Positions 1,789 to 51,757 of a stretch of 64,000 nt of DNA are shown in pieces. Source of the DNA: Nonomuraea sediminis (lineage in GTDB: Bacteria > Actinomycetota > Actinomycetes > Streptosporangiales > Streptosporangiaceae); NCBI RefSeq assembly GCF_018531495.1, contig NZ_JAHDTI010000003.1, positions 558,001 through 622,000 on the forward strand, read 5' to 3'. The notes beneath the pieces are model-generated. The model saw only the letters and a program-made list of their open reading frames with translations, searched no databases and was not told the origin of the DNA. Each line of letters begins with the position of its first letter. Position 1 is the stretch's first letter. The position numbers were made by a program, and so were the translations under genes.

Positions 1789-1850
1789 GTGTACGGCGGG
1801 CGGACCCCGCCGGACGAACGTCTCGCCGACGCGGTGTCTGACGGGGTTCG
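1789..1850. repeat. Decayed fragment of the GTACGGC element family
   Basis: The stretch has GTGTACGGCGGGC followed by TCTCGCCGACGCGGTG and ACGGGGTTCGGG, all of which recur in the element copies near 21.4-21.7 kb and 28.7-29.5 kb. Only about 60 bp can be matched by eye. It sits between the phosphoribosyltransferase and rsgA; no gene or promoter is evident in 1743-1898. Confidence 0.45.
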
Positions 1851-1898
1851 GGTGGGAGGGGGGTTCCCGCGCGGCCGATGAGGGGCGCGCGGGTGGGG

Positions 1899-6013: not shown

Positions 6014-6086
6014 CTGTACGGCAGGCCGCCGCCACCCCCACCCGCCGCACTCCGGCCGGGCCCTGTCCAGGGAGACGCTTCTCCGG
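6014..6086. repeat. Partial copy of the GTACGGC element (R orientation)
   Basis: TGTACGGCAGGCCGCCGCC, then CCGCCGCACTCCGGCCGGGC and CTGTCCAGGGAGACGCTTCT closely match the first ~75 bp of the copy at 28481. It lies in the gene-free interval 5910-6540, which otherwise holds only two terminators and the tandem repeat. Confidence 0.7.
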
Positions 6087-6211
6087 TGATGCGGGGTTGC
6101 GCGCCGTTACGCCGCGAGGAACCCCACGTCCACGGCCCCGGTTCCCCGCCGCACAGGGCGCCGCCTTCGCCGACCCACACCCCGCCGACCCGGCGCCTGA
6201 AACCCCGGCGT

Positions 6212-6480
6212 GACCAGGCGACAAACCCCGAGCGTGGACCAGGCGACAACCCCGCGCGTTGACCCAGCGACCAACCTGGGCGTGGACGGCGACCGACCCC
6301 GGACGTGAACCCTGCGACCAACCCCGAACGCGGAGCCCTGTCGACAGGCCCCGGACGTGAACCCTGCGACCGATCCCGAACGTGAAACCCTGCGACCGAC
6401 CCGGGCGTGGACCAGGCGACCGACTTCGGGTGTGGATCAGGCAGCCGACCTCGGGTGTGGGCCGGGCGGTCGGGCCCGTG
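6212..6480. repeat. Degenerate 25-bp tandem repeat, 11 units
   Basis: Eleven successive units of 21-27 bp start at 6212, 6237, 6262, 6285, 6308, 6333, 6360, 6385, 6410, 6435 and 6460. The approximate consensus is GACCAGGCGACCGACC followed by CCGGGCGTG. The most constant parts are the GCGACC/GCGACA core and the closing GTG. Seven units are exactly 25 bp, so the array is not kept in a codon frame. It lies between the CHRD and glyA terminators and contains no gene. Confidence 0.85.
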
Positions 6481-6485
6481 ACGCG

Positions 6486-6520
6486 ACAACGGCGCCGGGG
6501 GTGTGCCCTGGCGCCGTTGT
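6486..6520 (-). terminator. Terminator downstream of glyA
   Basis: Perfect 11-bp stem ACAACGGCGCC/GGCGCCGTTGT with a 13-nt loop, 21 nt after the glyA stop. There is no T-tract, as is usual for this group. Confidence 0.8.
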
Positions 6521-6540
6521 GGCTTGCCGTACTTGGTGGG

Positions 6541-7794
6541 TCAGGACAGGCCGGGGGCGGGGAAGCGGGCCGTGAGCTCGCTGACCTCGCCGTGGACGCG
6601 GGTGATGACGTCCTCCGCGTCGCCCTTGGACAGGGCCGTGACGACCTCGTCCATCCAGGCGCCGATCTGGCGCATCTCCGCCTCCTTCATGCCGCGCGAG
6701 GTCACCGACGGCGTGCCGATGCGGATGCCCGAGGGGTCGAAGGGCCTGCGCGGGTCGAAGGGGACGGTGTTGTAGTTCGTCTCCAGGCCGGCCCGGTCGA
6801 GCGCCTTGGCGGCGGGCTTGCCGGGCACGCCCTTGGAGGTCAGGTCGATGAGGATCAGGTGGTTGTCGGTGCCGCCGGAGACCAGGTCGAACCCGCGGTT
6901 GGACAGCTCCTCCGCCAGCGCCTTGGCGTTGGCGACCACCTGGTGGGCGTAGGTGCTGAACTCAGGCTGGGCGGCCTCGTGCAGCGCGACCGCGATCGCG
7001 GCGGTGGTGTGGTTGTGCGGGCCGCCCTGCAGGCCAGGGAAGATCGCCTTGTTGAGCAGGGTTGCCTTCTCGTCGTCGTCGGCCATCAGCATGGCGCCGC
7101 GCGGGCCGCGCAGCGTCTTGTGCGTGGTGGTGGAGATGACGTCGGCGTACCCGACGGGCGACGGGTGGGCGCCGCCCGCGATCAGGCCGGCGATGTGCGC
7201 GATGTCGGCGGCCAGGATCGCGCCGACCTCGCGGGCGATCTCGGCGAAGGCCGGGAAGTCGATGATGCGCGGGATGGCGGTGCCACCGCAGAAGATCACC
7301 TTGGGCCGATGCTCCAGGGCCAGCTCGCGGACCTGGTCCATGTCGGCGCGGCCGGTCTCCTTGCGGACGTTGTAGGAGACGGGCTTGAACCACTTGCCCG
7401 ACACCGACACGGGCGAGCCGTGGGTGAGGTGGCCGCCGGAGGACAGGTTCATGCCCATGAACGTGTCACCGGGCTGCATGAAGGCCAGGTAGATGGCCAG
7501 GTTGGCGGGCGAGCCCGAGTACGGCTGCACGTTGGCGTGGTTGACGCCGAACAGGGACTTGGCCCGCTCGATGGCCAGGGTCTCGATCGGGTCGATGACC
7601 TGCTGGCCCTCGTAGTAGCGCTTGCCGGCGTAGCCCTCGGAGTACTTGTTGGTCAGTACCGTGCCGGTGGCCTCGAGCACCGCCTTGGAGACGTAGTTCT
7701 CCGAAGGGATCAGCTTGACCGTGTCGGCCTGCCGGCGTTCCTCGGCTCCGATGAGCTCGGCGATCTGCGGGTCTACGCTTTCGAGAGAAGACAT
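6541..7794 (-). CDS. glyA: Serine hydroxymethyltransferase
   Basis: 417 residues, the normal length for the family. The enzyme interconverts serine and glycine, loading one carbon on tetrahydrofolate with pyridoxal phosphate. The PLP lysine is Lys226 in STTTHKTLRGPRG. The other family blocks are present (KLIPSENYVS, NKYSEGYAGKRYYEG, FPGLQGGPHNH, RIGTPSVTSRG). The start is ATG 7794 with AAGGAG in front; a long upstream open frame is only a shadow. The 5' leader folds as a ZTP riboswitch (7815-7895), linking expression to one-carbon or purine status. Confidence 0.97.
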   Translation of the reverse strand: MSSLESVDPQIAELIGAEERRQADTVKLIPSENYVSKAVLEATGTVLTNKYSEGYAGKRYYEGQQVIDPIETLAIERAKSLFGVNHANVQPYSGSPANLAIYLAFMQPGDTFMGMNLSSGGHLTHGSPVSVSGKWFKPVSYNVRKETGRADMDQVRELALEHRPKVIFCGGTAIPRIIDFPAFAEIAREVGAILAADIAHIAGLIAGGAHPSPVGYADVISTTTHKTLRGPRGAMLMADDDEKATLLNKAIFPGLQGGPHNHTTAAIAVALHEAAQPEFSTYAHQVVANAKALAEELSNRGFDLVSGGTDNHLILIDLTSKGVPGKPAAKALDRAGLETNYNTVPFDPRRPFDPSGIRIGTPSVTSRGMKEAEMRQIGAWMDEVVTALSKGDAEDVITRVHGEVSELTARFPAPGLS

Positions 7795-19206: not shown

Positions 19207-21327
<2,121 letters not shown>

Positions 21328-21370
21328 CCACCCACACTCCACCGCCCACGTACGGCTAAATCCGGCGGCC

Positions 21371-21668
21371 GTGTACGGCGGGCAAGGTGGTCGCCGGGGC
21401 GAGGGGCGGCGGGGTCCGGCACGAGCATCCGCCAAAACCTTCCAGGCGCCGCGTCGGCGAGACGGCGCACGGCGGACTCCGGCGCCCACGTACGGCGGGA
21501 TCTGGCACCCGCGTACGGCGGGCACGGTGATCGCCGGGACGAGGTGTGCGACGGGGTCCGGCACGAGCACCCGCCGAAACCTTCCAGGCGCCGCGTCGGC
21601 GAGACAGTGCACGGCGAAGTCCGGCGCCCACGTACGGCGGAGACCGGCGGCCGTGTACGGCGGGCGTG
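21371..21668. repeat. Tandem GTACGGC-element units (140-bp period)
   Basis: A 140-bp unit beginning GTGTACGGCGGGC (21371) repeats at 21511 (GCGTACGGCGGGC) and begins a third time near 21653. Each unit has TCGCCGGG, GGGTCCGGCACGAGCA, CCAGGCGCCGCGTCGGCGAG and two GTACGGC blocks spaced 23-24 nt. The interval 21328-21956 has no credible gene. Confidence 0.85.
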
Positions 21669-21893
21669 GCGGGCACCGCGCTCGCGGGCGGGGCGGGTGC
21701 CGCGTTCGCGGGCGGGGGCGAGCGCCTCATTCGTGGGTGGGCAGGTCGGAGGGCGTGCCTGGGTCCGGAAGGCCGTGCGTGTCGGGTTGGAGGGGAGGCG
21801 TAGCGGCGGGCTGCTTGCGTCGCTGGAGGAGCGTCTCCCTGGACAGGGAGCGGCCGAAGTGCGGTGGGTGGCGGTTGGGTGGCTTGCCGTACA
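21585..21893. repeat. Long GTACGGC element, L copy
   Basis: This ~309-bp stretch is, by eye, roughly 90% identical to the reverse complement of 28481-28784. Shared blocks include GGCGAAGTCCGGCGCCCA, GAGCGCCTCATTCGTGGGTG (R copy reads CTCGTTCG), GGCCGTGCGTGTCGGGTTGG, CGTCGCTGGAGGAGCGTCTC and GCGGTTGGGTGGCTTGCCGT. Confidence 0.9.
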
Positions 21894-21956: not shown

Positions 21957-22730
21957 TCAGGACACCGGGATGGGGAGGAAGGTGGAGACGGCGGTGGCCA
22001 GCGCGGGGGTGTGGCTGAGGTAGAGGTCGTGGCCGGCGCCGGGGATCGTGACGAGGCGGGTGTGCGGCCGGCGGGCGATCATTTCGGGCGCGTGGCGGGC
22101 GACGGCGCTGTCGCCGCCGACCACGAGGAGGGCCGGTTGGGGGCTGGAGGTCCAGTCGTCCCACCAGGACCCGGCGATGCCGCGTTTGGTGGCGCGGATG
22201 TCCTCGGCGTTCCACAGGAAGCCCCAGCCGCGCTCGTCCTCGAAGGCGCTCTCCGTGAAGTGGCCGGGCACGTCCGTGCCGACCAGCCGCCTGATCGCCT
22301 GCTCGAGCTGGGTGAAGCTGGCGAAGCGGTCGGGGAGCTCGTCGAGCCAGGGGTCGGTGGAGGTGCCCGCCTCGGCGGGGAAGTCGATGGCCACGAACGA
22401 CTCCACCAGCTCGGGGCGGCGGGCCGCGAGCTGGTAGGCGTTGAGCGCCCCGAGTGAGTGGCCGACGATCGTGACCGGCGCGAGGTCGAGCGCCTCGATG
22501 AAGGCGGCGGTGTCGGCGAGGTAGCCCTCGCGCGAGTAGTCGCCCGGCTTGTCCGACAGGCCGTGGCCGCGCTGGTCGAGCCCGATGACGCGGCGGCCGA
22601 GGTGCTCGGCGAGCGGCATGAAGGAGCGGCCGCGGCCGAAGGCGCCGTGCAGGGCGAGGATGGGACGGCCCGGGCCGCCGGAGTCGACGTAGGACAGGCG
22701 GACACCGTGTGGCGTGGTCACGAAGCTCAT
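21957..22730 (-). CDS. Alpha/beta hydrolase
   Basis: 257 residues. It has the alpha/beta-hydrolase layout: oxyanion region ALHGAFGRGRSF, DQRGHGLSDKP, nucleophile elbow VGHSLGALNAYQLA, acid LLVVGGDSAVA and base GAGHDLYLSHTP. The length suits a cofactor-free esterase or lipase-like enzyme; the substrate is unknown. TAGAGT lies 7 nt before the ATG, so the mRNA is probably leaderless. The divergent pgeF start is 67 nt away, with two palindromes in between that may serve both genes. Confidence 0.9.
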   Translation of the reverse strand: MSFVTTPHGVRLSYVDSGGPGRPILALHGAFGRGRSFMPLAEHLGRRVIGLDQRGHGLSDKPGDYSREGYLADTAAFIEALDLAPVTIVGHSLGALNAYQLAARRPELVESFVAIDFPAEAGTSTDPWLDELPDRFASFTQLEQAIRRLVGTDVPGHFTESAFEDERGWGFLWNAEDIRATKRGIAGSWWDDWTSSPQPALLVVGGDSAVARHAPEMIARRPHTRLVTIPGAGHDLYLSHTPALATAVSTFLPIPVS

Positions 22731-22748
22731 AGCCGTGACTCTAAACGA

Positions 22749-22784
22749 GACTCTCGAATCGAGTCAACTCTTTTCGAGACTCGA
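22749..22784. promoter_or_regulatory. Two palindromes between hydrolase and pgeF
   Basis: GACTC-N7-GAGTC spans 22749-22765 and TCGAG-A-CTCGA spans 22774-22784, the latter abutting the pgeF -10 box TAGGAT (22785-22790). They are probably operators for a regulator not encoded next to them. Confidence 0.5.
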
Positions 22785-22797
22785 TAGGATCAGAGGC

Positions 22798-23505
22798 ATG
22801 CAGCTCGCGAGGGGGATCCAGGTCGCCGTCACCGACCGTCACGGCGGTGTCAGCAGCCCGCCGTACGGCTCGCGCAACCTCGGCGGGCTGGTCGGCGACG
22901 ACCCGGAGGCCGTGCGGGCCAACCGCGAGAGCGTGGCGCGGGAGCTGGGCGTGCGGGCGGTCGTGTTCATGCGCCAGGTGCACAGTGCGGACGTCGCCTA
23001 CGTGAGCGAGCCGTTCGGGACCGACGCACCGCCGATGGACGGCGTGTTCACCGGCGAGCCGAGGCTGGCGCTGGCGTCACTGGGCGCCGACTGCCCGGCG
23101 GTGCTGGTGGGCGACCCGGAGGCCAGGCTCGTGGGCGCCGCGCACTCGGGGCGGCCCGGCACCGAGGCGGGCATCGCCACCGCCCTGGTCGAGGCCATGG
23201 CCGCCAAGGGCGCGGATCCGGCGCGGATGGTCGCGCTGGTCGGGCCGGGGGCGTGCGGCCGCTGCTACGAGGTGCCCGCCGACCTGCGCGAGCGGGTGGC
23301 CGCCGCGGTGCCCGAGACGTTCTCCACCACCTCGTGGGACACTCCGGCGCTCGATCTGCGCGCCGGCATCGAGGCCCAGCTGCGGGCGGCGGGCGTCGTG
23401 GACGTGCGGCACGACGCCCGGTGCACGATCGAGTCGGCGGAGCTCTACTCACACCGGCGCGAGCAGCCAGGCGGCCGCTTCGCCGGGCTCATCTGGCTGA
23501 CCTAG
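22798..23505 (+). CDS. pgeF: Laccase-domain purine nucleoside phosphorylase (YfiH/PgeF family)
   Basis: 235 residues from ATG 22798, 7 nt after TAGGAT (leaderless type). The family metal ligands are visible: MRQVHSADVAYV, ADCPAVLVGD and AAHSGRPGTEAG. The start GIQVAVTDRHGGVSSPPYGS and the GPGACGRCYEV block are diagnostic. Older annotation calls these polyphenol oxidases; biochemical work on the family shows adenosine/purine nucleoside activities. In many actinobacteria this gene sits in the ftsZ region, so its position here is unusual, unless this is a second copy (inference). Confidence 0.88.
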   Translation: MQLARGIQVAVTDRHGGVSSPPYGSRNLGGLVGDDPEAVRANRESVARELGVRAVVFMRQVHSADVAYVSEPFGTDAPPMDGVFTGEPRLALASLGADCPAVLVGDPEARLVGAAHSGRPGTEAGIATALVEAMAAKGADPARMVALVGPGACGRCYEVPADLRERVAAAVPETFSTTSWDTPALDLRAGIEAQLRAAGVVDVRHDARCTIESAELYSHRREQPGGRFAGLIWLT

Positions 23506-23843
23506 CCGCTGCGGCGGCCCAGCGCGAACACCACGTTCACCAGCACGATCCCCAGCCAGATGATCAGGAAGATTCGTTCTGATCCACCCGTGACGGCGAT
23601 CGCGATCGTGGCGCCCGTGCCGAGCGCCATCGAGACGATCGCCAGCGCCAGCCGCTGGCCTTCGGCCGCTTTCCGCTGCTTGGCCAGCGCCTTGGGGTTG
23701 GCCGCGGCCAGGCGTTCGTCGACCCGCCGGTCGACCTCCTTGCCCATCTTGTCCAAGAAGGACTCGACGACGGCGTCCTCGTAGTCGGGCCCGAGGTCGC
23801 GCCGTGCCTGGACGGCGGCCCTTAACTCATCACCGGTGCTCAT
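23502..23843 (-). CDS. Small membrane protein of unknown function
   Basis: 113 residues. The N-terminal half is charged and helical (YEDAVVESFLDKMGKEVDRR, then VDERLAAANPKALAKQRKAA). The C-terminal half has two membrane helices (LALAIVSMALGTGATIAIAV and IFLIIWLGIVLVNVVFAL). Similar proteins are widespread in actinobacteria and uncharacterised. TAGCCT lies 6 nt before the ATG. The stop overlaps the pgeF stop in a CTAG (23502-23505). Confidence 0.78.
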   Translation of the reverse strand: MSTGDELRAAVQARRDLGPDYEDAVVESFLDKMGKEVDRRVDERLAAANPKALAKQRKAAEGQRLALAIVSMALGTGATIAIAVTGGSERIFLIIWLGIVLVNVVFALGRRSG

Positions 23844-23852
23844 GCCATGAGG

Positions 23853-24977
23853 CTACCTGGCGAGGATGTCGTCGAGGTTGTAGGAGACGGGGCGCTCGAG
23901 CTGCTCGTAGGTGCACGACTCGGGCGTGCGGTCGGGACGCCAGCGGCGCCACTGCGCGGTGTGGCGGAACCGGTCGCCCTCCATCTGGTCGTAGGCCACC
24001 TCGATCACCAGCTCGGGCCGCAGCGGCGTGAACGACAGGTCCTTCTTGGCGTTCCACCGCGAGACCGCGCCCGGCACCCGCTGCCCGCCGCGCGCGGGAC
24101 CGGCGGCGGGCTGGCCGATGTTGGCGACGGCCTGCTCGGCCCAGTGGCCCCACGGGTGTTCGCTCAGGTCGGCGATGTAGGGGCGCAGCTCCTCCATCAG
24201 CTCGGCCCTGCGCGCCATCGGGAAGGAGGCGGCCACTCCGACGTGGTGCAGCCTGCCGTCGGGCCCGTACAGGCCGAGCAGGATCGAGCCGATGATCGGC
24301 CCGGTCTTGTGCTCGCGGAACCCGGCGATCACCACGTCGGCGGTGCGCTCGTGCTTGACCTTGAACATCGTGCGCTTGTCGGGCACGTAGGGCTGGTCGC
24401 CCGGTTTGACGATGATCCCGTCGAGCCCGGCGCCCTCGAACATCTCGAACCACTCCTCGGCCTGGGAGTCGTTCTTCGTCACGGGCGTGAGCCTGATCGA
24501 CCCGCCCTTCTCCTCCGGGAAGATCCCCTCCAGGCGCTCCCGCCGCTCGGCGAAGGGGGCCTCCATGAACGACTCCTGGCCCAGCGCCAGCAGGTCGAAG
24601 GCGACGAAGGAGGCCGGGGTCTGCTCGGCGAGCATGTTCACCCGTGAGGCCGCCGGATGGATGCGCTGCTGCAGCGCGTCGAAGTCGAGGTGGCTGCCGC
24701 GCGGGAGCACGATCTCCCCGTCGACCACGCACTTGTCGGGCAGCTCCGCCTTGACCGCTGCCACCAGCTCAGGGAAGTAGCGCGTGAACGGCCGCTCGTT
24801 GCGGCTGCCGAGGAACACCTCGTCGCCGTCGCGGAAGATGATGCAGCGGAAGCCGTCCCACTTCGGCTCGTAGAACAGCGTGCCGTCCTGCTTGGGCATG
24901 GCCTTGACGGCCTTGGCCAGCATGGGCGGAACGGGCGGCAGCACCGGCAGGTCGAGCCGGAGTTCCTCGTCATCCAT
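23853..24977 (-). CDS. ATP-dependent DNA ligase (LigC-like)
   Basis: 374 residues. The nucleotidyltransferase domain has the adenylated lysine in EPKWDGFR (Lys39), then VVDGEIVLP, FVAFDLLALG, LDGIIVKPGDQPYV and FKVKHERTADVVIAGFREHK. An OB-fold domain makes up the rest (IIGSILLGLYGPDGRLHHVG, LVIEVAYDQMEGDRFRHTAQ). There is no polymerase or nuclease domain, so it is the stand-alone LigC type. These ligases can seal ends in non-homologous end joining or excision repair. A PolDom protein is encoded 13.6 kb away (38578). It overlaps the RibD-like gene by 8 nt. No Ku gene is in the window. Confidence 0.92.
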   Translation of the reverse strand: MDDEELRLDLPVLPPVPPMLAKAVKAMPKQDGTLFYEPKWDGFRCIIFRDGDEVFLGSRNERPFTRYFPELVAAVKAELPDKCVVDGEIVLPRGSHLDFDALQQRIHPAASRVNMLAEQTPASFVAFDLLALGQESFMEAPFAERRERLEGIFPEEKGGSIRLTPVTKNDSQAEEWFEMFEGAGLDGIIVKPGDQPYVPDKRTMFKVKHERTADVVIAGFREHKTGPIIGSILLGLYGPDGRLHHVGVAASFPMARRAELMEELRPYIADLSEHPWGHWAEQAVANIGQPAAGPARGGQRVPGAVSRWNAKKDLSFTPLRPELVIEVAYDQMEGDRFRHTAQWRRWRPDRTPESCTYEQLERPVSYNLDDILAR

Positions 24978-25695
24978 CGGCCAGCTCCCTCGTGTACGCG
25001 CAGAAGAGGACGCCCTCCTCCTCCAGAACCTGACGCAGGCCCAGCTTCACCTGCGCGGACTCGCCGTTCAGTATCCGTGCCGCGCCGCCGCCCACCAGCA
25101 TCGGGCTGATCGTCAGGCACAGCTCGTCGACCAGGTCGGCCGCCGCCAGCTGCCCGTTGAGCCGCGGCCCGCCTTCGCACAGCACCCTGGTCAGCCCCCG
25201 GTCGTGCAGCTCCCGTACGGCGAGCGTCATGTCCACCCGCTCGCCGCCCGCCACGATCACGTCGGCCAGCCGGGCGGCGTCCTTGCGCCGGTCGGCGGGC
25301 GCGGCCTCGCAGGTGATGACGATGGTCCGGGCGCTGGCCTCGGTGAACAGCGGGCTGCCCAGGTCGAGGTCGAGCCGCCGGGTGACGACCGCGATCGGTG
25401 GGGCCGCCGGCCGGTCCGCGCGCAGCACCTTCCACGACTCGCGCGGCTTGGCGGGGCCGTATCCCTCGGTGCGGACGGTCGCGGCGCCGGCCATGATCAC
25501 GTCGGACAGCCCGCGGAGCACTCCGAAGATGCGCCGGTCGCCCTTGCTGGACAGCCCCCCGGACAGGCCCTTCACCCAGGCGGCGCCGTCGGCGCTCTCC
25601 ACCATGTTGACCCGCAGCCAGGGCCGCCCCGCCGGGTAGGCGTAGGCAAGCTCGATGTCCGGGTTGTCCTGTATGTCGGGATGGATGCGGCGCAC
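24970..25695 (-). CDS. Pyrimidine reductase-family protein (RibD C-terminal domain)
   Basis: 241 residues from GTG 25695, with AAGG 7 nt upstream. It has the RibD_C/dihydrofolate-reductase-like fold: WLRVNMVESADGAAWVKG, GDRRIFGVLRGLSDVIMAGA and LCEGGPRLNGQLAAADLVDE. The deaminase half of RibD is absent. Such proteins reduce the ribosylamino-pyrimidine in riboflavin synthesis or act on unknown substrates. Coupling to a DNA ligase rather than riboflavin genes argues against a core riboflavin role (inference). Confidence 0.85.
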   Translation of the reverse strand: MRRIHPDIQDNPDIELAYAYPAGRPWLRVNMVESADGAAWVKGLSGGLSSKGDRRIFGVLRGLSDVIMAGAATVRTEGYGPAKPRESWKVLRADRPAAPPIAVVTRRLDLDLGSPLFTEASARTIVITCEAAPADRRKDAARLADVIVAGGERVDMTLAVRELHDRGLTRVLCEGGPRLNGQLAAADLVDELCLTISPMLVGGGAARILNGESAQVKLGLRQVLEEEGVLFCAYTRELADG

Positions 25696-25827
25696 CCCTC
25701 TACCTTGGCACACGGCTCTGACACTCAGCGCTTGAAGGCGGATATAGCGCTTTGGAACATCCCGATGACTTACGTGGCGACATGTGCATAACGTGGCGGC
25801 AGGGATCAGGGACTACGAGGAGGCCCA

Positions 25828-26232
25828 GTGGGTCTGGTCACTGCCGTGACGTGGTCGTTCACCGCGCTGGTCGGGATCTACCTGCTCTATCTGTGGTTGT
25901 CGGGCGGCGGGCTGCGACAACAGGCGACCAAAGTGACCCGGTTCCCGGTGGTCCTGATCTTCTCCCATCCCACGCTGGCCGTGACCGGGCTGGTGTGCTG
26001 GGTGGCGTTCCTGCTGACCGGTAGCAAGGTGCTGGCCTGGGTGTCGTTCGGGGTGCTCGCCTCGGCGGCGCTGCTCGGGTTCACCATGTTCACCCGGTGG
26101 CTGGGCGGCGGGCGCCACGCCAGGGGGGCCGAGCGGCGTTTTCCCGTGCTGGCCGTACTGCTGCACGGTCTTGCCGGGGTGGCCACCTTCGTGCTGGTGC
26201 TGCTGACGGCGAGCGTGGCCAGGAGCCTGTGA
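25828..26232 (+). CDS. Four-helix membrane protein of unknown function
   Basis: 134 residues, GTG start behind a strong AGGAGG at 6 nt. Hydrophobic segments are about 5-25, 41-63, 69-88 and 107-130. A charged loop (GGGRHARGAERRF) lies between the third and fourth. It has no recognised domain. The preceding gap (25696-25827) holds two AGCGCTT direct repeats and no other feature. Confidence 0.75.
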   Translation: MGLVTAVTWSFTALVGIYLLYLWLSGGGLRQQATKVTRFPVVLIFSHPTLAVTGLVCWVAFLLTGSKVLAWVSFGVLASAALLGFTMFTRWLGGGRHARGAERRFPVLAVLLHGLAGVATFVLVLLTASVARSL

Positions 26233-26250
26233 GCTGCGACCGGGGTAGTT

Positions 26251-26266
26251 GAGAAATCGATTACTC
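26251..26266. promoter_or_regulatory. LacI-type operator 1 (GH43-like gene)
   Basis: GAGAAATCGATTACTC is a near-perfect palindrome with central AATCGATT. It lies 90 nt before the start codon and resembles operator 2. Confidence 0.55.
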
Positions 26267-26300
26267 GTACTTTGCGGATAAACCTTGACGATCCGCGGGA

Positions 26301-26326
26301 GTTGCGAGAAAACGATTTCCAGCAAC
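26301..26326. promoter_or_regulatory. LacI-type operator 2 (GH43-like gene)
   Basis: This is a 26-bp interrupted palindrome: GTTGC, 2 nt, GAAA-n-CG-n-TTTC, 2 nt, GCAAC. The CG-centred GAAA/TTTC core is typical of LacI-family sugar repressors. A TTGACG box (26285-26290) is just upstream, so binding would block the promoter. Confidence 0.65.
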
Positions 26327-26355
26327 CTGTCCGCCTCGAGAATGCGATCCGCGCC

Positions 26356-28362
26356 ATGAAGAGGTTGTTCAGCATCAGCGCGCTCTGCGCGCTCCTGGTC
26401 TCGTCCCTGATCTGCTTACCCGCCGCGGCCGCGCCGTGGCCGGCCCAGGAACCCGACCTCGCCTGGCCCACCGCCGGCACCTTCGACCACGTGTGGAACC
26501 CGGGCAGAGGCACCTACAACGGAAGGGAGGGGCAGCTCTACATCAACGACCACACCCTCATCTACGACGGCCAGAAATGGCACCTGTTCGGCATCACCGG
26601 CGTGGCGGATCCGCCGGACCCCGACGGTGAGGACCAGCTCGCCCACGCCACCGCGCCGGCCCTGGCCGGGCCGTGGCACAAGGAGCCTGACGTGCTCACC
26701 AACCCGGACGCCTATGGCGAGAGCCACGTCTGGGCCCCGCACGTGGTCAAGAACGGCGGCACCTACTACATGTTCTACGCCGCCGGCAGCGCCGACACCG
26801 CGAAGATCAAGTACGCCACGTCCACGGACCTCATGAACTGGCACCGCGAGGGGATCGCCTTCATCGACGGCGCGGAGGCCAGGGACCCGATGGTCACGTG
26901 GATCGACGGCCAGTGGGTGATGTACTACACCTCGACCACGACGGGCAGCGTCGGCAACTACGCGGTCGCCTACCGGACCAGCCCCGACCTGAGGTCCTGG
27001 AGTCCCCGGCACATCGCCTACAGCGATCCCGTGGTCGGCTGGGTGTTCGAGCTCACCGAGTCGCCGTTCGTGGTCCAGCGGGACGGCTGGTGGTACCTGT
27101 TCATCGGCCCGCGCGGCGGCTACGCCGGCACCGACGTCTACCGCAGCCGCACCCCCTACAGCTTCTCGATCAACGACTACGCGGGCCACATCGCCGCGCA
27201 CGCCGCCGAGGTCGTCCAGGCCGGCGCCTCCTGGTGGGTCACCGGGGCGGGCTGGTACCAGCAGGGAGTGTGGCTGGCCCCGCTGACGTGGGCGGCCGAC
27301 CCGCCGCTGTGGCAGAGCGCGCAGAACCCGGCCGTCGCGGCGAACGCCGACGGCAGGCTCGAGGTCTTCGCCATGGAGCCGGGCAGCAACAACCTGTTCC
27401 ACCGCTGGCAGACCGCGCCGAGCGGGTCGTGGAGCGGATGGGAGAGGTTCGGAGACTCGGCGGGAGCCGTACCGACCGTCGGGCGTAACGCCGACGGCAG
27501 CCTGGAGGTCTTCGCGCTCAGCCCCGGCGGGACGGGCATCTACCACCGCCGGCAGACCGGCCCGAACGGCGGGTGGAGCGACTGGGCGCCCTTCGGCGGT
27601 CCCGCGGGCGCGGCGCCGGTGGTCGGGCAGAACGCGGACGGGCGGCTCGAAGTCTTCGCGCTCGGCCCCGCGGGCAGCGGCCTGTTCCACCGCTGGCAGA
27701 CCGCGCCCAGCGGCGGGTGGAGCGACTGGGCCTCCTTCGGCGGTCCCGCGGGCGGCCCGCCCACCGTCGGACGCAACGCCGACGGCCGGCTCGAGGTCTT
27801 CAGCCTGGACCCCGGCGGCACCGGGCTGCACCACCGCTGGCAGCTGACGCCCAGCGGCGGATGGAGCGACTGGGCGCCCTTCGGCGGTCCCGCCGCCGCG
27901 GCTCCCACGGTCGGCCAGAACGCGGACGGACGGCTGGAGGTCTTCGCCCTGGCTCCCGGCGGGGCGGCGCTCAATCACCGCTGGCAGCTGACGCCCAGCG
28001 GCGGGTGGAGCGACTGGGCCTCCTTCGGCGGCCCCGCGGGCGGCCCGCCCACCGTCGGACGCAACGTCGACGGACGGCTCGAGCTCTTCGCCCTGGCTCC
28101 CGGCGGTACCTCCATCGCCAACCGGCACCAGCTCGCGCCCAGCGGCGGGTGGAGCGACTGGGACGGCGCCTTCGGCCCCACGGCCGCGGGCTGCTCACCC
28201 ACGGTCGCGAGCAACGCCGACGGCCGCCTGGAAATCCTCGCCCTCGGACCGGAGGGACGCGGCGTCTTCGACCGCTACCAGACGGCGCCGAACAACGGCT
28301 GGAGCCCTTGGACCTCCTTCGGCCAGTGGTCCGCCGGCCTCCCCTGCGCCGCCCCCTACTGA
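26356..28362 (+). CDS. Secreted GH43-like enzyme with C-terminal seven-repeat PLL-type lectin propeller
   Basis: 668 residues from ATG 26356. Signal peptide about 1-26 (ALCALLVSSLICLPAAAA). Residues about 40-320 look like a GH43/GH32 five-bladed propeller, with candidate acids in DHTLIYDGQKWHLFG, EARDPMVTWIDGQWVMYYT and WVFELTESPFVVQ. From about 325 there are seven repeats of ~48 residues built on NADGRLEVFALGPGG and SGGWSDWAPFGGPAG, as in the PLL/DUF346 tectonin-like lectins. It is probably an exported glycosidase that binds a glycan through the second propeller (inference). Two LacI-type operators precede it and a terminator follows. Confidence 0.87.
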   Translation: MKRLFSISALCALLVSSLICLPAAAAPWPAQEPDLAWPTAGTFDHVWNPGRGTYNGREGQLYINDHTLIYDGQKWHLFGITGVADPPDPDGEDQLAHATAPALAGPWHKEPDVLTNPDAYGESHVWAPHVVKNGGTYYMFYAAGSADTAKIKYATSTDLMNWHREGIAFIDGAEARDPMVTWIDGQWVMYYTSTTTGSVGNYAVAYRTSPDLRSWSPRHIAYSDPVVGWVFELTESPFVVQRDGWWYLFIGPRGGYAGTDVYRSRTPYSFSINDYAGHIAAHAAEVVQAGASWWVTGAGWYQQGVWLAPLTWAADPPLWQSAQNPAVAANADGRLEVFAMEPGSNNLFHRWQTAPSGSWSGWERFGDSAGAVPTVGRNADGSLEVFALSPGGTGIYHRRQTGPNGGWSDWAPFGGPAGAAPVVGQNADGRLEVFALGPAGSGLFHRWQTAPSGGWSDWASFGGPAGGPPTVGRNADGRLEVFSLDPGGTGLHHRWQLTPSGGWSDWAPFGGPAAAAPTVGQNADGRLEVFALAPGGAALNHRWQLTPSGGWSDWASFGGPAGGPPTVGRNVDGRLELFALAPGGTSIANRHQLAPSGGWSDWDGAFGPTAAGCSPTVASNADGRLEILALGPEGRGVFDRYQTAPNNGWSPWTSFGQWSAGLPCAAPY

Positions 28363-28408: not shown

Positions 28409-28480
28409 GCCCTCCAGCGCACCGCTTCCCGTTCTCTCCTTGTACGGCAACCCACCCGACTCTTGTACGGCAAGACTCTT

Positions 28481-28784
28481 GTACGGCAAGCCACCCAACC
28501 GCCACCCACCGCACTTCGGCCGCCCCCTGTCCAGGGAGACGCTCCTCCAGCGACGCATGGCCGGCCACCGTTACGACTCCACTCCAACCCGACACGCACG
28601 GCCCTCCGAACCCGGGCACGCCCTCCGACCTGCCACCCACGAACGAGGCGCTCGCCCCACTCGCGAACGCGGCACCCGCCCAGCCCGCGAGCGTGGTGCC
28701 CGCCCCGCCGTACACGGCCGCCGAACTCCGCCGTACCTGGGCGCCGGACTTCGCCGTACACCGCCTCGCCGACCCGGCGCCTGA
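28481..28784. repeat. Long GTACGGC element, R copy
   Basis: Roughly 90% identical by eye to the reverse complement of 21585-21893. It starts GTACGGCAAGCCACCC and passes CCCCTGTCCAGGGAGACGCT and GCACGGCCCTCCGAACCC. It ends in the 23-nt units with CCGCCGTACACGG and CCGCCGTACCTGG, then CTCGCCGACCCGGCGCCTG. Two short CTTGTACGGCAA fragments lie just before it. Confidence 0.9.
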
Positions 28785-28865
28785 GGACGCCCCGGCGAGC
28801 GCCCGTTCTGGCGCGTAGCCGGAGGCCTCTCACCCGTCGACCACCCTGCCCCGCCGCACGCGAGC

Positions 28866-29505
28866 GCCGGATCCCGCCATACGCGGCCGCCGGTCTCCGC
28901 CGTACCCGGGCACCAAAACCCGCCCTACGTAGACGCCGGACTCCGCCGTACACGGGCGCCGGACTCCGCCGTACGCCCTCTCGCCGCACCGGCGCCTGGG
29001 AACGCCCCGGCGGGCGGCCCGTCCTAGCGCGCAGCCGAAGGACCCTCACCCGTCGGCCACCCTGCCCCGCCGCACGCGGCCGCCGGATCCCGCCGTACGC
29101 GGCTGCCAGTCTCCGCCGTACCCGGGCGCCAAAGCCCGCCGTACGTAGACGCCGGACTCCGCCGTACATGGGCGCCGGACTCCGCCGTACACCGTCTCGC
29201 CGCCCCGGCGCCTGGGGACGCCCCGGCCGGGTCGTGCCGGACGCCCGCATACCTCCTCGCCCCGGCGACCACCCTGCCCGCCGTACATGGACGCCGGTCT
29301 CCGCCGTACCCGGGCGCCAAAGCCCGCCGTACGTAGACACCGGTCTCCGCCGTACATGGGCGCCGGACTCCGCCGTACGCCGTCTCGTCGACCCGGCGCC
29401 TGGGAACTCCCCGGCGGGGTCGTGCCGGACCCCCGCATACCTCCTCGCCCCGGCGACCACCCTGGCCGGCATACGTGGGCGCCGGTCACTGCTGTACACG
29501 TCCTC
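28866..29505. repeat. Tandem cassettes of 23-nt GTACGGC units
   Basis: Three cassettes each hold about five consecutive 23-nt units with the form GCC(GG)ACTCCGCCGTAC plus two variable bases and a GGGC-like end. They are followed by CTCGCCGNCCCGGCGCCTGG and a ~90-nt unique-looking stretch. Unit runs are near 28866-28980, 29082-29195 and 29275-29385, with remnants to 29505. A 168-bp segment at 29109-29276 is repeated at 29297-29464. All frames are open here because of composition; I see no gene in 28409-29578. Confidence 0.85.
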
Positions 29506-29578
29506 GCCGAGTCGGTGGCTGGGAGGGCTGGGTGGGGGCTGCTCGCGTGGGGGTGATCGGGCCTGGTTTGGGCGGAGG

Positions 29579-39573: not shown

Positions 39574-39971
39574 GCCCCCGAACCTACCCCGCCCCCAAGA
39601 TCATCCTCTTGTACGGCAGGCAAGCCCGCTCCGGCGCCGGGTCGGCCGGGTGTGGGGCGGCGAACAAGATAACCGCATCGGGGCGGGTCCGGGCGGAGCT
39701 CCTGGTGGCGGGACCAGGGCTCGACGCGCCGGACCACAAGACCATGCGCCCCTGCGCCGTTCCGGGCGCTGGCGCGTCGCCCGGCCGGCCTGTGTGACCG
39801 CCGGCGGCGCCAGCACGGGCGTGGGCTGTGCCGCTCGGGCGATCCGGCGATGATCTCACCCCTTTGCAGGGAGCTATGGCGCCCCCATGCCTACAAAGAC
39901 GCAAAATCACCCCAGAATGGATGCTTCCCCCTGCGGAGATCTCTTTTTGCCGGATCTCGTAGGCTGGAGGC
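39574..39971. other. Gene-free interval before msrB
   Basis: 398 bp without a credible ORF. TTGTACGGCAGGC (39609-39621) and CTCCGGCGCCGGGTCGG just after it look like a short relic of the GTACGGC element. The last 120 bp are less GC-rich and end in a TAGGCT box (39960-39965) 6 nt before the msrB ATG. Confidence 0.5.
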
Positions 39972-47992: not shown

Positions 47993-48078
47993 CCCTCACC
48001 CGGGCCGGCTGGACGGGCCCCACGGGTGTCGGAAGGTGGCAACCCACGGGTCCCTTGGGCGCCGGGGCGGCGAGGAGA

Positions 48079-48115
48079 GGTACGGCGGAAAGCGGCGCCC
48101 TCGTACGGCGGGCCA
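48079..48115. repeat. Two-unit GTACGGC array
   Basis: GTACGGCGGAAAGCGGCGCC then GTACGGCGGGCC start 23 nt apart, the same unit length as the arrays near 29 kb. A third GTACGGCGGGC is at 48209. The interval 47993-48257 has no gene. Confidence 0.65.
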
Positions 48116-48257
48116 GAGGGACCGCGGTGCCCGGAGAACGAAGCGCCGTGGCGGCGAGCAAGAGTCCCCGACTCGCCGCGAGCGCCGGGCACGGGCCCTC
48201 AGCCGGAGTACGGCGGGCGGCCGGTGGCGGCGGCTCGCCGTACGACAGAAGCTTGAC

Positions 48258-51711: not shown

Positions 51712-51757
51712 CCACGGCAAGCCGCCCCACCGGCCGCCCAACGCACTCCGGGCCGCG
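51712..51757. repeat. Decayed fragment of the GTACGGC element
   Basis: CCACGGCAAGCCGCCCCACC and GCACTCCGGGCC match the start of the R-type copies (28481, 6014) with several changes. Confidence 0.5.

Follow-up and report, generated by a model that had tools for sequence, protein, structure and literature searches.

A 23-nt tandem array in Nonomuraea sediminis probably belongs to a dispersed, MITE-like family of foldback elements

Introduction

The window analysed here, a 64,000-nt stretch of the Nonomuraea sediminis genome, contains arrays of short tandem units between 28.7 and 29.4 kb, and the question they raise is whether such arrays stand on their own or form part of something larger. A first-pass annotation had described noncoding 23-nt units in cassettes of about five, some 100 nt apart, and likened them to iterons. 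The 23-nt arrays themselves are real: reading of the sequence and a motif count bear out both the position and the grouping of the units. Cassettes of about 3, 6, 6 and 5 boxes, as counted by reading, occupy positions 28702-28759, 28852-28974, 29068-29190 and 29279-29378, with spacings of ∼90-95 nt, and the window holds 28 occurrences of ACTCCGCCGTAC when up to two mismatches are allowed, whereas 100 shuffled versions average 8.9 ± 3.1 (largest 16). The same unit was also said to recur, in either orientation, at 21.34-21.68 and 48.08-48.12 kb, and minus-strand copies are indeed present at both places. The arrays prove to be internal parts of larger elements, in which the unit is half of a ∼53-nt core. 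Judged from the sequence comparisons below, there is a probability of roughly 70% that they belong to a non-autonomous, MITE-like foldback family of small gene-free mobile elements.

Results

A dispersed core behind the arrays

Matches elsewhere in the same genome are ∼50-60 nt long rather than 23 nt. Alignment of 36 own-genome copies defines a core of ∼53 nt with the architecture CGCCGTAC-n(1-4)-GGCGCCG-nnn-TCCGCCGTAC-nnCnTCyCGCCG-nnn-CGGCGCC. Most core copies carry two CGCCGTAC boxes 22-23 nt apart, and the 23-nt unit therefore corresponds to the core's left half. The core model (R1), which derives from copies in this genome and may overlook those that have diverged, gives at least 151 matches in the 12.09-Mb genome; the 150 matches listed fall into 101 clusters. 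Neighboring cores less than 500 nt apart are arranged head-to-tail 45 times against 2. The wider count proposed by the first-pass annotation thus reveals a family that is dispersed in its own genome and also found in relatives.

Extra 23-nt units upstream of the core are rare. Among 149 core copies examined, 137 have none, 8 have one, 1 has two and only 3 have three or four, and these three all lie at 28.9-29.4 kb in the window. Since long arrays are confined to one locus among 149 copies, the array expanded locally, within an element that is itself dispersed, and the idea of a 23-nt iteron scattered through the genome is not supported. The same confinement would suit slippage at this locus alone, unconnected with any dispersed family. 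It had been proposed that units present nowhere else in the genome and absent from close relatives would indicate a slippage product of this kind; instead, at least 150 dispersed cores and at least 150 dispersed ends were found, and relatives, including other genera, carry related cores. As a full account, local slippage is refuted by these cores, by the ends and by the family-wide R1 matches, and the chance that it explains the locus is negligible.

An alternative is that the arrays are protein-binding sites, iteron-like or chromosome-organising, with CGCCGTAC read at 23-nt spacing. Few parts of the core are as well conserved as the CGCCGTAC boxes, both within and across genera, as such a reading would predict. 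The scarcity of copies with three or more extra units (3/149) speaks against it, as does the uneven spread of core clusters, which ranges from 3.5 to 39.6 per Mb among contigs with copies (lowest in C11 and C23, at 3.5 and 3.9; highest in C38, C8 and C18, at 29-40), the extremes resting on small numbers. Together with the evidence from relatives given below, this leaves a binding array, as the first-pass annotation proposed it, with a very small share of the probability.

Foldback elements and their ends

Upstream of many single core copies, a further ∼110-140 nt is shared, starting with TGTACGGCRRGCC; this start lies at the expected distance in 45 of the 149 core copies. Two types of end can be distinguished, type A marked by CGGCGAGTCG and type B by TCCAGGGAGACG. 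A sequence model of the ∼110-nt end (R2) finds at least 152 matches in the own genome, of which 150 are listed, all at E <= 4.8e-19. No listed core lies just downstream of 117 of these 150 ends. When the best-scoring 36 of 115 isolated ends were read, several ran on into an inverted A or B end, and in 13 of the 36 the first base lies no more than 12 nt from a stop codon.

In the own-genome stretches around copies, 44 intervals of 139-777 nt carry a TIR-type motif at both sides. Three of these are mostly coding, and 11 (139-142 nt) span only the distance between an end and the box of the core itself, which falls short of a complete element. Twenty non-coding intervals of 289-772 nt have outward GTACGGCRRGCC-type ends at both sides. 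Both ends could be typed in nine intervals (A-A 5, A-B 1, B-A 1, B-B 2). The CGCCGTAC-box core is present in many element copies, tandem arrays in some. Two features expected of MITEs are present: terminal inverted repeats in the 20 long intervals (W3 and W4 in the window show one end only), and short, gene-free, intergenic sequences in many copies, with at least 150 cores and at least 150 ends.

The outer boundary of the elements is fuzzy: beyond TGTACGGC lie bases rich in pyrimidines as well as short tandem copies. At five loci (L307, L126, L127, L169 and L097), the outermost end sequence is present in short tandem copies of ∼16-25 nt, by eye, just outside TGTACGGC; a comparable run with a 16-nt unit lies in the window at 28458-28490.

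Element copies in the window

The arrays belong to copy W3 (28476..29534, plus strand), which begins with a type B end (R2, 28477-28579), followed by a 24-nt array (28633-28706) and then the 23-nt cassettes. Along with the expanded 23-nt units it holds four strong plus-strand cores (28725-28796, 28940-29011, 29156-29227 and 29344-29415; R1 73.6-83.3 bits) and four weaker ones on the same strand (28871-28939, 29087-29145, 29275-29333 and 29463-29534). A canonical far end was not recognised in W3. Copy W2 (21343..21893, minus strand) also bears arrays and is inverted relative to W3; it has strong cores at 21430-21501 and 21572-21643, a weak one at 21326-21384, and TIR-like ends at 21372 and 21893, the former of which may be an internal box.

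Copy W1 (6016..6532, plus strand) is a complete element of 517 nt with a type B left end, a core at 6143-6212 and the right end GGCTTGCCGTAC, and it lies in the convergent gap 5909/6541 between called genes. It holds a different, 25-nt tandem array (6202-6468), so internal arrays of other units also occur in this family. Copy W4 (48043..48247, minus strand) combines a type A end (48141-48247) with a core (48043-48114) in the convergent gap 47992/48258; a second end was not seen.

The first-pass annotation had listed four relics, which fared differently. The site at 6.01 kb is the full element W1 (R2 58.1 bits, R1 48.2 bits). The one at 1.79 kb is a marginal core relic (1790..1853, plus strand; R1 20.9 bits, E 0.023). 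Those at 39.61 and 51.71 kb have no match at E <= 1 to R1 or R2; by eye alone they are short degenerate pieces of the element end, namely TTGTACGGCAGGC at 39609..39621 and a piece of a type A end at 51717..51740, both on the plus strand.

Placement between genes

Genomic placement was assessed with genes called by our own codon-usage caller. The 149 core copies (100 of the 101 clusters) lie in convergent (84), tandem (49) and divergent (11) gaps, with 4 inside called genes and 1 at a contig edge. The 97 gaps that hold core copies are mostly convergent (convergent 51, tandem 39, divergent 7), whereas the remaining 167 gaps in these stretches that measure 60 nt or more split into 23, 67 and 77, respectively (Fisher 3.6e-11 and 4.8e-12). 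The 41 non-coding paired-end intervals are distributed likewise (25 convergent, 14 tandem, 1 divergent, 1 edge), as are the 20 long intervals (11, 8 and 1 divergent). Thus, the element family is non-coding, as had been claimed for the arrays, and mostly intergenic, and the check for placement between genes reveals a preference for convergent gaps. The strand bias that was also to be checked is absent from tandem gaps, where 24 core copies run along transcription and 25 against it.

Folding

The convergent enrichment could also mean that the elements are kept by selection as 3'-end hairpins, terminating transcription from both sides or stabilising mRNA where genes converge. Folding of three chosen elements gave z scores of -19.4 and -2.3 with RNA parameters and -9.95 with DNA parameters, so the folds are very stable in two of the three. 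Inverted ends would fold in this way. The idealised core folds no better than shuffled versions on one strand (z -0.21) and weakly on the other (z -1.67), and the idealised type A end gives z -1.72.

Several results weigh against selection for a hairpin. In 20 elements, the two arms are no more alike within one element (0.801) than between elements (0.796, p 0.29), which does not support a hairpin kept by co-varying arms. A structured RNA was rejected: RNAalifold on 37 own-genome copies returned a covariation term of only -0.33, though 5 of the 16 consensus pairs show at least one two-sided change, and Rfam yielded no match at E <= 0.5 in four element-bearing loci. At 6.0 kb, an ordinary hairpin with a T-run, identified by eye, already precedes the element, and the congeners of one relative have no core at sites where that relative does (see below). 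Selection for 3'-end hairpins is therefore improbable, though it is the best placed of the rival accounts; the ends look to be kept by sequence recognition and not by pairing.

Across the whole window, Rfam at gathering thresholds returns a ZMP/ZTP riboswitch alone. This aptamer (RF01750, 7812-7896, minus strand, 46.7 bits, above the gathering score) lies just upstream of the minus-strand gene 6541-7794.

Distribution in relatives and turnover

Wide scans across genomes used stricter filters, and the per-genome match numbers they give are lower bounds. At E <= 0.01, R1 matches 29 of 200 family genomes, in 10 of 68 genera, including 6 of 11 genomes of the same genus. In a class sample, 5 of 394 genomes match at E <= 0.001; four of these belong to the family, and the fifth, from outside, matches weakly (38.1 bits). 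An exact pattern scan of named genomes retrieved 12 stretches, from three species of Nonomuraea, Sphaerisporangium melleum and a Microtetraspora. For R2, 17 of 200 genomes of the family give matches, among them 9 of the 11 from the same genus, and every one of these matches is clearly weaker than those in the own genome (best 50.7 bits, in G100).

Genome G031, assembled as one contig and belonging to another genus, contains 108 R1 matches at E <= 0.1 spread along the chromosome. Among 30 of these matches and 28 loci from six further genomes, the core architecture is the same with some variation. Only the core was seen in G031, which is not among the 17 genomes matched by R2. A local expansion is thus also seen outside the window's genus: at one G031 locus (L265, 2600-3700), four cores lie head-to-tail at 179-nt spacing, with a long array built of short units after them.

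Turnover was compared in one 16-kb stretch of G031. When the orthologous stretches of 10 congeners were searched, none of its three R1 sites had a counterpart at E <= 0.02. Seven of these ten have at least 17-24 R1 matches elsewhere, G148 has one and G129 none; the tenth, G598, fell outside that scan. One convergent gap measures 304 nt in G031 against 0-144 nt in the ten congeners. Gap-by-gap orthology is imperfect, since the two genes that precede the third site are missing from two of the ten. That the three sites are not common to congeners argues against a chromosome-organising array, as does an apparent lack of strict strand polarity among 98 of the 108 matches, read by eye from tenths of the G031 chromosome. 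The counts look uneven in this reading, but a replichore polarity was considered and set aside.

The convergent preference, the lack of orientation bias in tandem gaps, the paired inverted ends and the empty orthologous stretches together point to a mobile repeat more than to an iteron array.

An inverted block between two copies

Copies W2 and W3 share inverted stretches with high complementarity (78 nt at 99%, 80 nt at 91%, 75 nt at 88% and 55 nt at 91%), and the genes between them (21957..28362) include a block, 22798-26232, that is reversed relative to relatives. The gene at 19207-21327 matches Pfam CBM48 and alpha-amylase domains, and we take it to be glgX-like. In all nine relatives fetched, it is convergent with the counterpart of the gene at 25828-26232, across gaps of -4 to 135 nt, an arrangement absent from the window. 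The whole block lies reversed between glgX and an aldehyde dehydrogenase gene in three of the nine; in the other six, parts of the block are missing, moved or beyond the fetched stretch. The stretches from these nine relatives contain no strong core match (best R1 25.7 bits, inside a called gene).

W2 and W3 occupy the two breakpoint intervals of the reversed block and enclose two further genes, 21957-22730 and 26356-28362. The simplest account appears to be that these inverted copies underwent homologous recombination and so flipped the block between them. The second of these genes, which adjoins the array, is glycoside hydrolase-like, with an FG-GAP-like match and internal tandem repeats of 144/288 bp.

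Target sites and mobilising enzyme

Target-site duplications are frequent, though not universal, in MITEs. The 41 intervals show no excess of flanking direct repeats (p 0.22), nor do the 20 long intervals with 10- or 24-nt flanks (p 0.93 or 0.68). A genome-wide search for a transposase with matching ends, conducted with PF01797 alone, found none; no autonomous partner with matching ends was noticed in the own-genome stretches around copies, and the ten proteins encoded at 19.2-31.6 kb, around W2 and W3, match no Pfam transposase family. PF01797 has four matches genome-wide, two strong (149.8 and 142.4 bits), presumably IS200-like, and two 64-aa fragments at contig ends.

These searches bear on another reading, in which the elements are repeats of REP/BIME type and a RAYT (Y1) transposase moves them. 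In its favor are the many copies, the hairpins and a placement between genes, convergent ones in particular, and the likeness extends to published REP, BIME and REPIN systems with RAYT, which are described, in the parts of the sources available, as high-copy short intergenic palindromes (PMC2817692, PMC3733652, PMC3116915). However, none of the four PF01797 matches is flanked by, or within 10 kb of, any listed core or end copy, and the GTAG tag is absent from the core consensus. The alternative tag, CGTC, precedes CGCCG-nnn-CGGCG in many, but not all, core copies. REPs in BIMEs alternate, according to the portion of the source available (PMC2817692), whereas the close cores here run head-to-tail. 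A RAYT-driven origin ranks marginally below even the binding array and is hardly to be expected.

Two carriers were considered and rejected. For a phage, the exact pattern is absent from viral_contigs, a comparison that diverged copies would escape; for a plasmid, blastn of one element returned nothing from the plasmid collection, with little sensitivity to diverged copies.

Discussion

The MITE-like reading suggests the following course of events. A transposase supplied in trans would recognise the ends, perhaps also the CGCCGTAC boxes, and move the element; a putative protein, for example such a transposase, may bind CGCCGTAC. Element copies would survive in 3'-3' gaps, where harm is least. 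Slippage or unequal recombination could then expand internal units, such as the 23-mer, and any hairpin effect on transcript ends would be a side effect. A bolder version, which we consider unlikely though worth stating, is that the family follows an undescribed dispersal route, with interchangeable A and B ends, neither target-site duplication nor a matching IS, landing at gene 3' ends and an enzyme binding at CGCCGTAC, the tandem end copies being a trace of the reaction.

The first-pass annotation knew of no described element of this form, but a precedent exists. As far as the available part of the source goes, BrickBuilt of Porphyromonas gingivalis is a 23-nt minisatellite inside a MITE: a spacerless tandem unit within an intergenic non-autonomous element that has a leader, a tail and small inverted-repeat ends (PMC4596501). 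The likeness is one of build. BrickBuilt has 19 copies in an unrelated host, against at least 150 here. By the same partial source, its TIR-bearing leaders and tails always accompany the 23-nt repeat, whereas here three or more extra units are the exception (3/149 cores); its ends are similar to those of known ISs, and target-site duplications occur at three of the four copies that have both ends (PMC4596501), neither of which was found in the family described here.

BOX elements of Streptococcus pneumoniae offer a second parallel, again in build. The accessible portion of the source describes modular ends, a repeatable middle module and over-representation between convergent genes, and states that BOX are thought to be non-autonomous mobile elements (PMC3049150). 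Unlike BOX, the present family has GC-rich ends of ∼110 nt in two interchangeable types, and no IS with similar ends was found. Because target-site duplications and a mobiliser were not found and the ends are interchangeable, the family is best placed as a variant beside BrickBuilt and BOX. A search by title and opening of the abstract, with most subscription journals outside its coverage, found no literature on this family, and the available part of a review of prokaryotic MITEs (PMC10969869) contains none of the terms actinobacteria, Streptomyces, Mycobacterium or actinomycet.

If the MITE-like reading is true, a large, GC-rich actinomycete genome would carry a repeat family of the same general kind as BOX or REP, and this repeat family would be tied to a chromosomal inversion. 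One core, kept across several genera of one family, could then be used to seek the missing mobilising enzyme. It would also show that a conspicuous array of tandem units can be the one easily noticed part of a dispersed mobile element.
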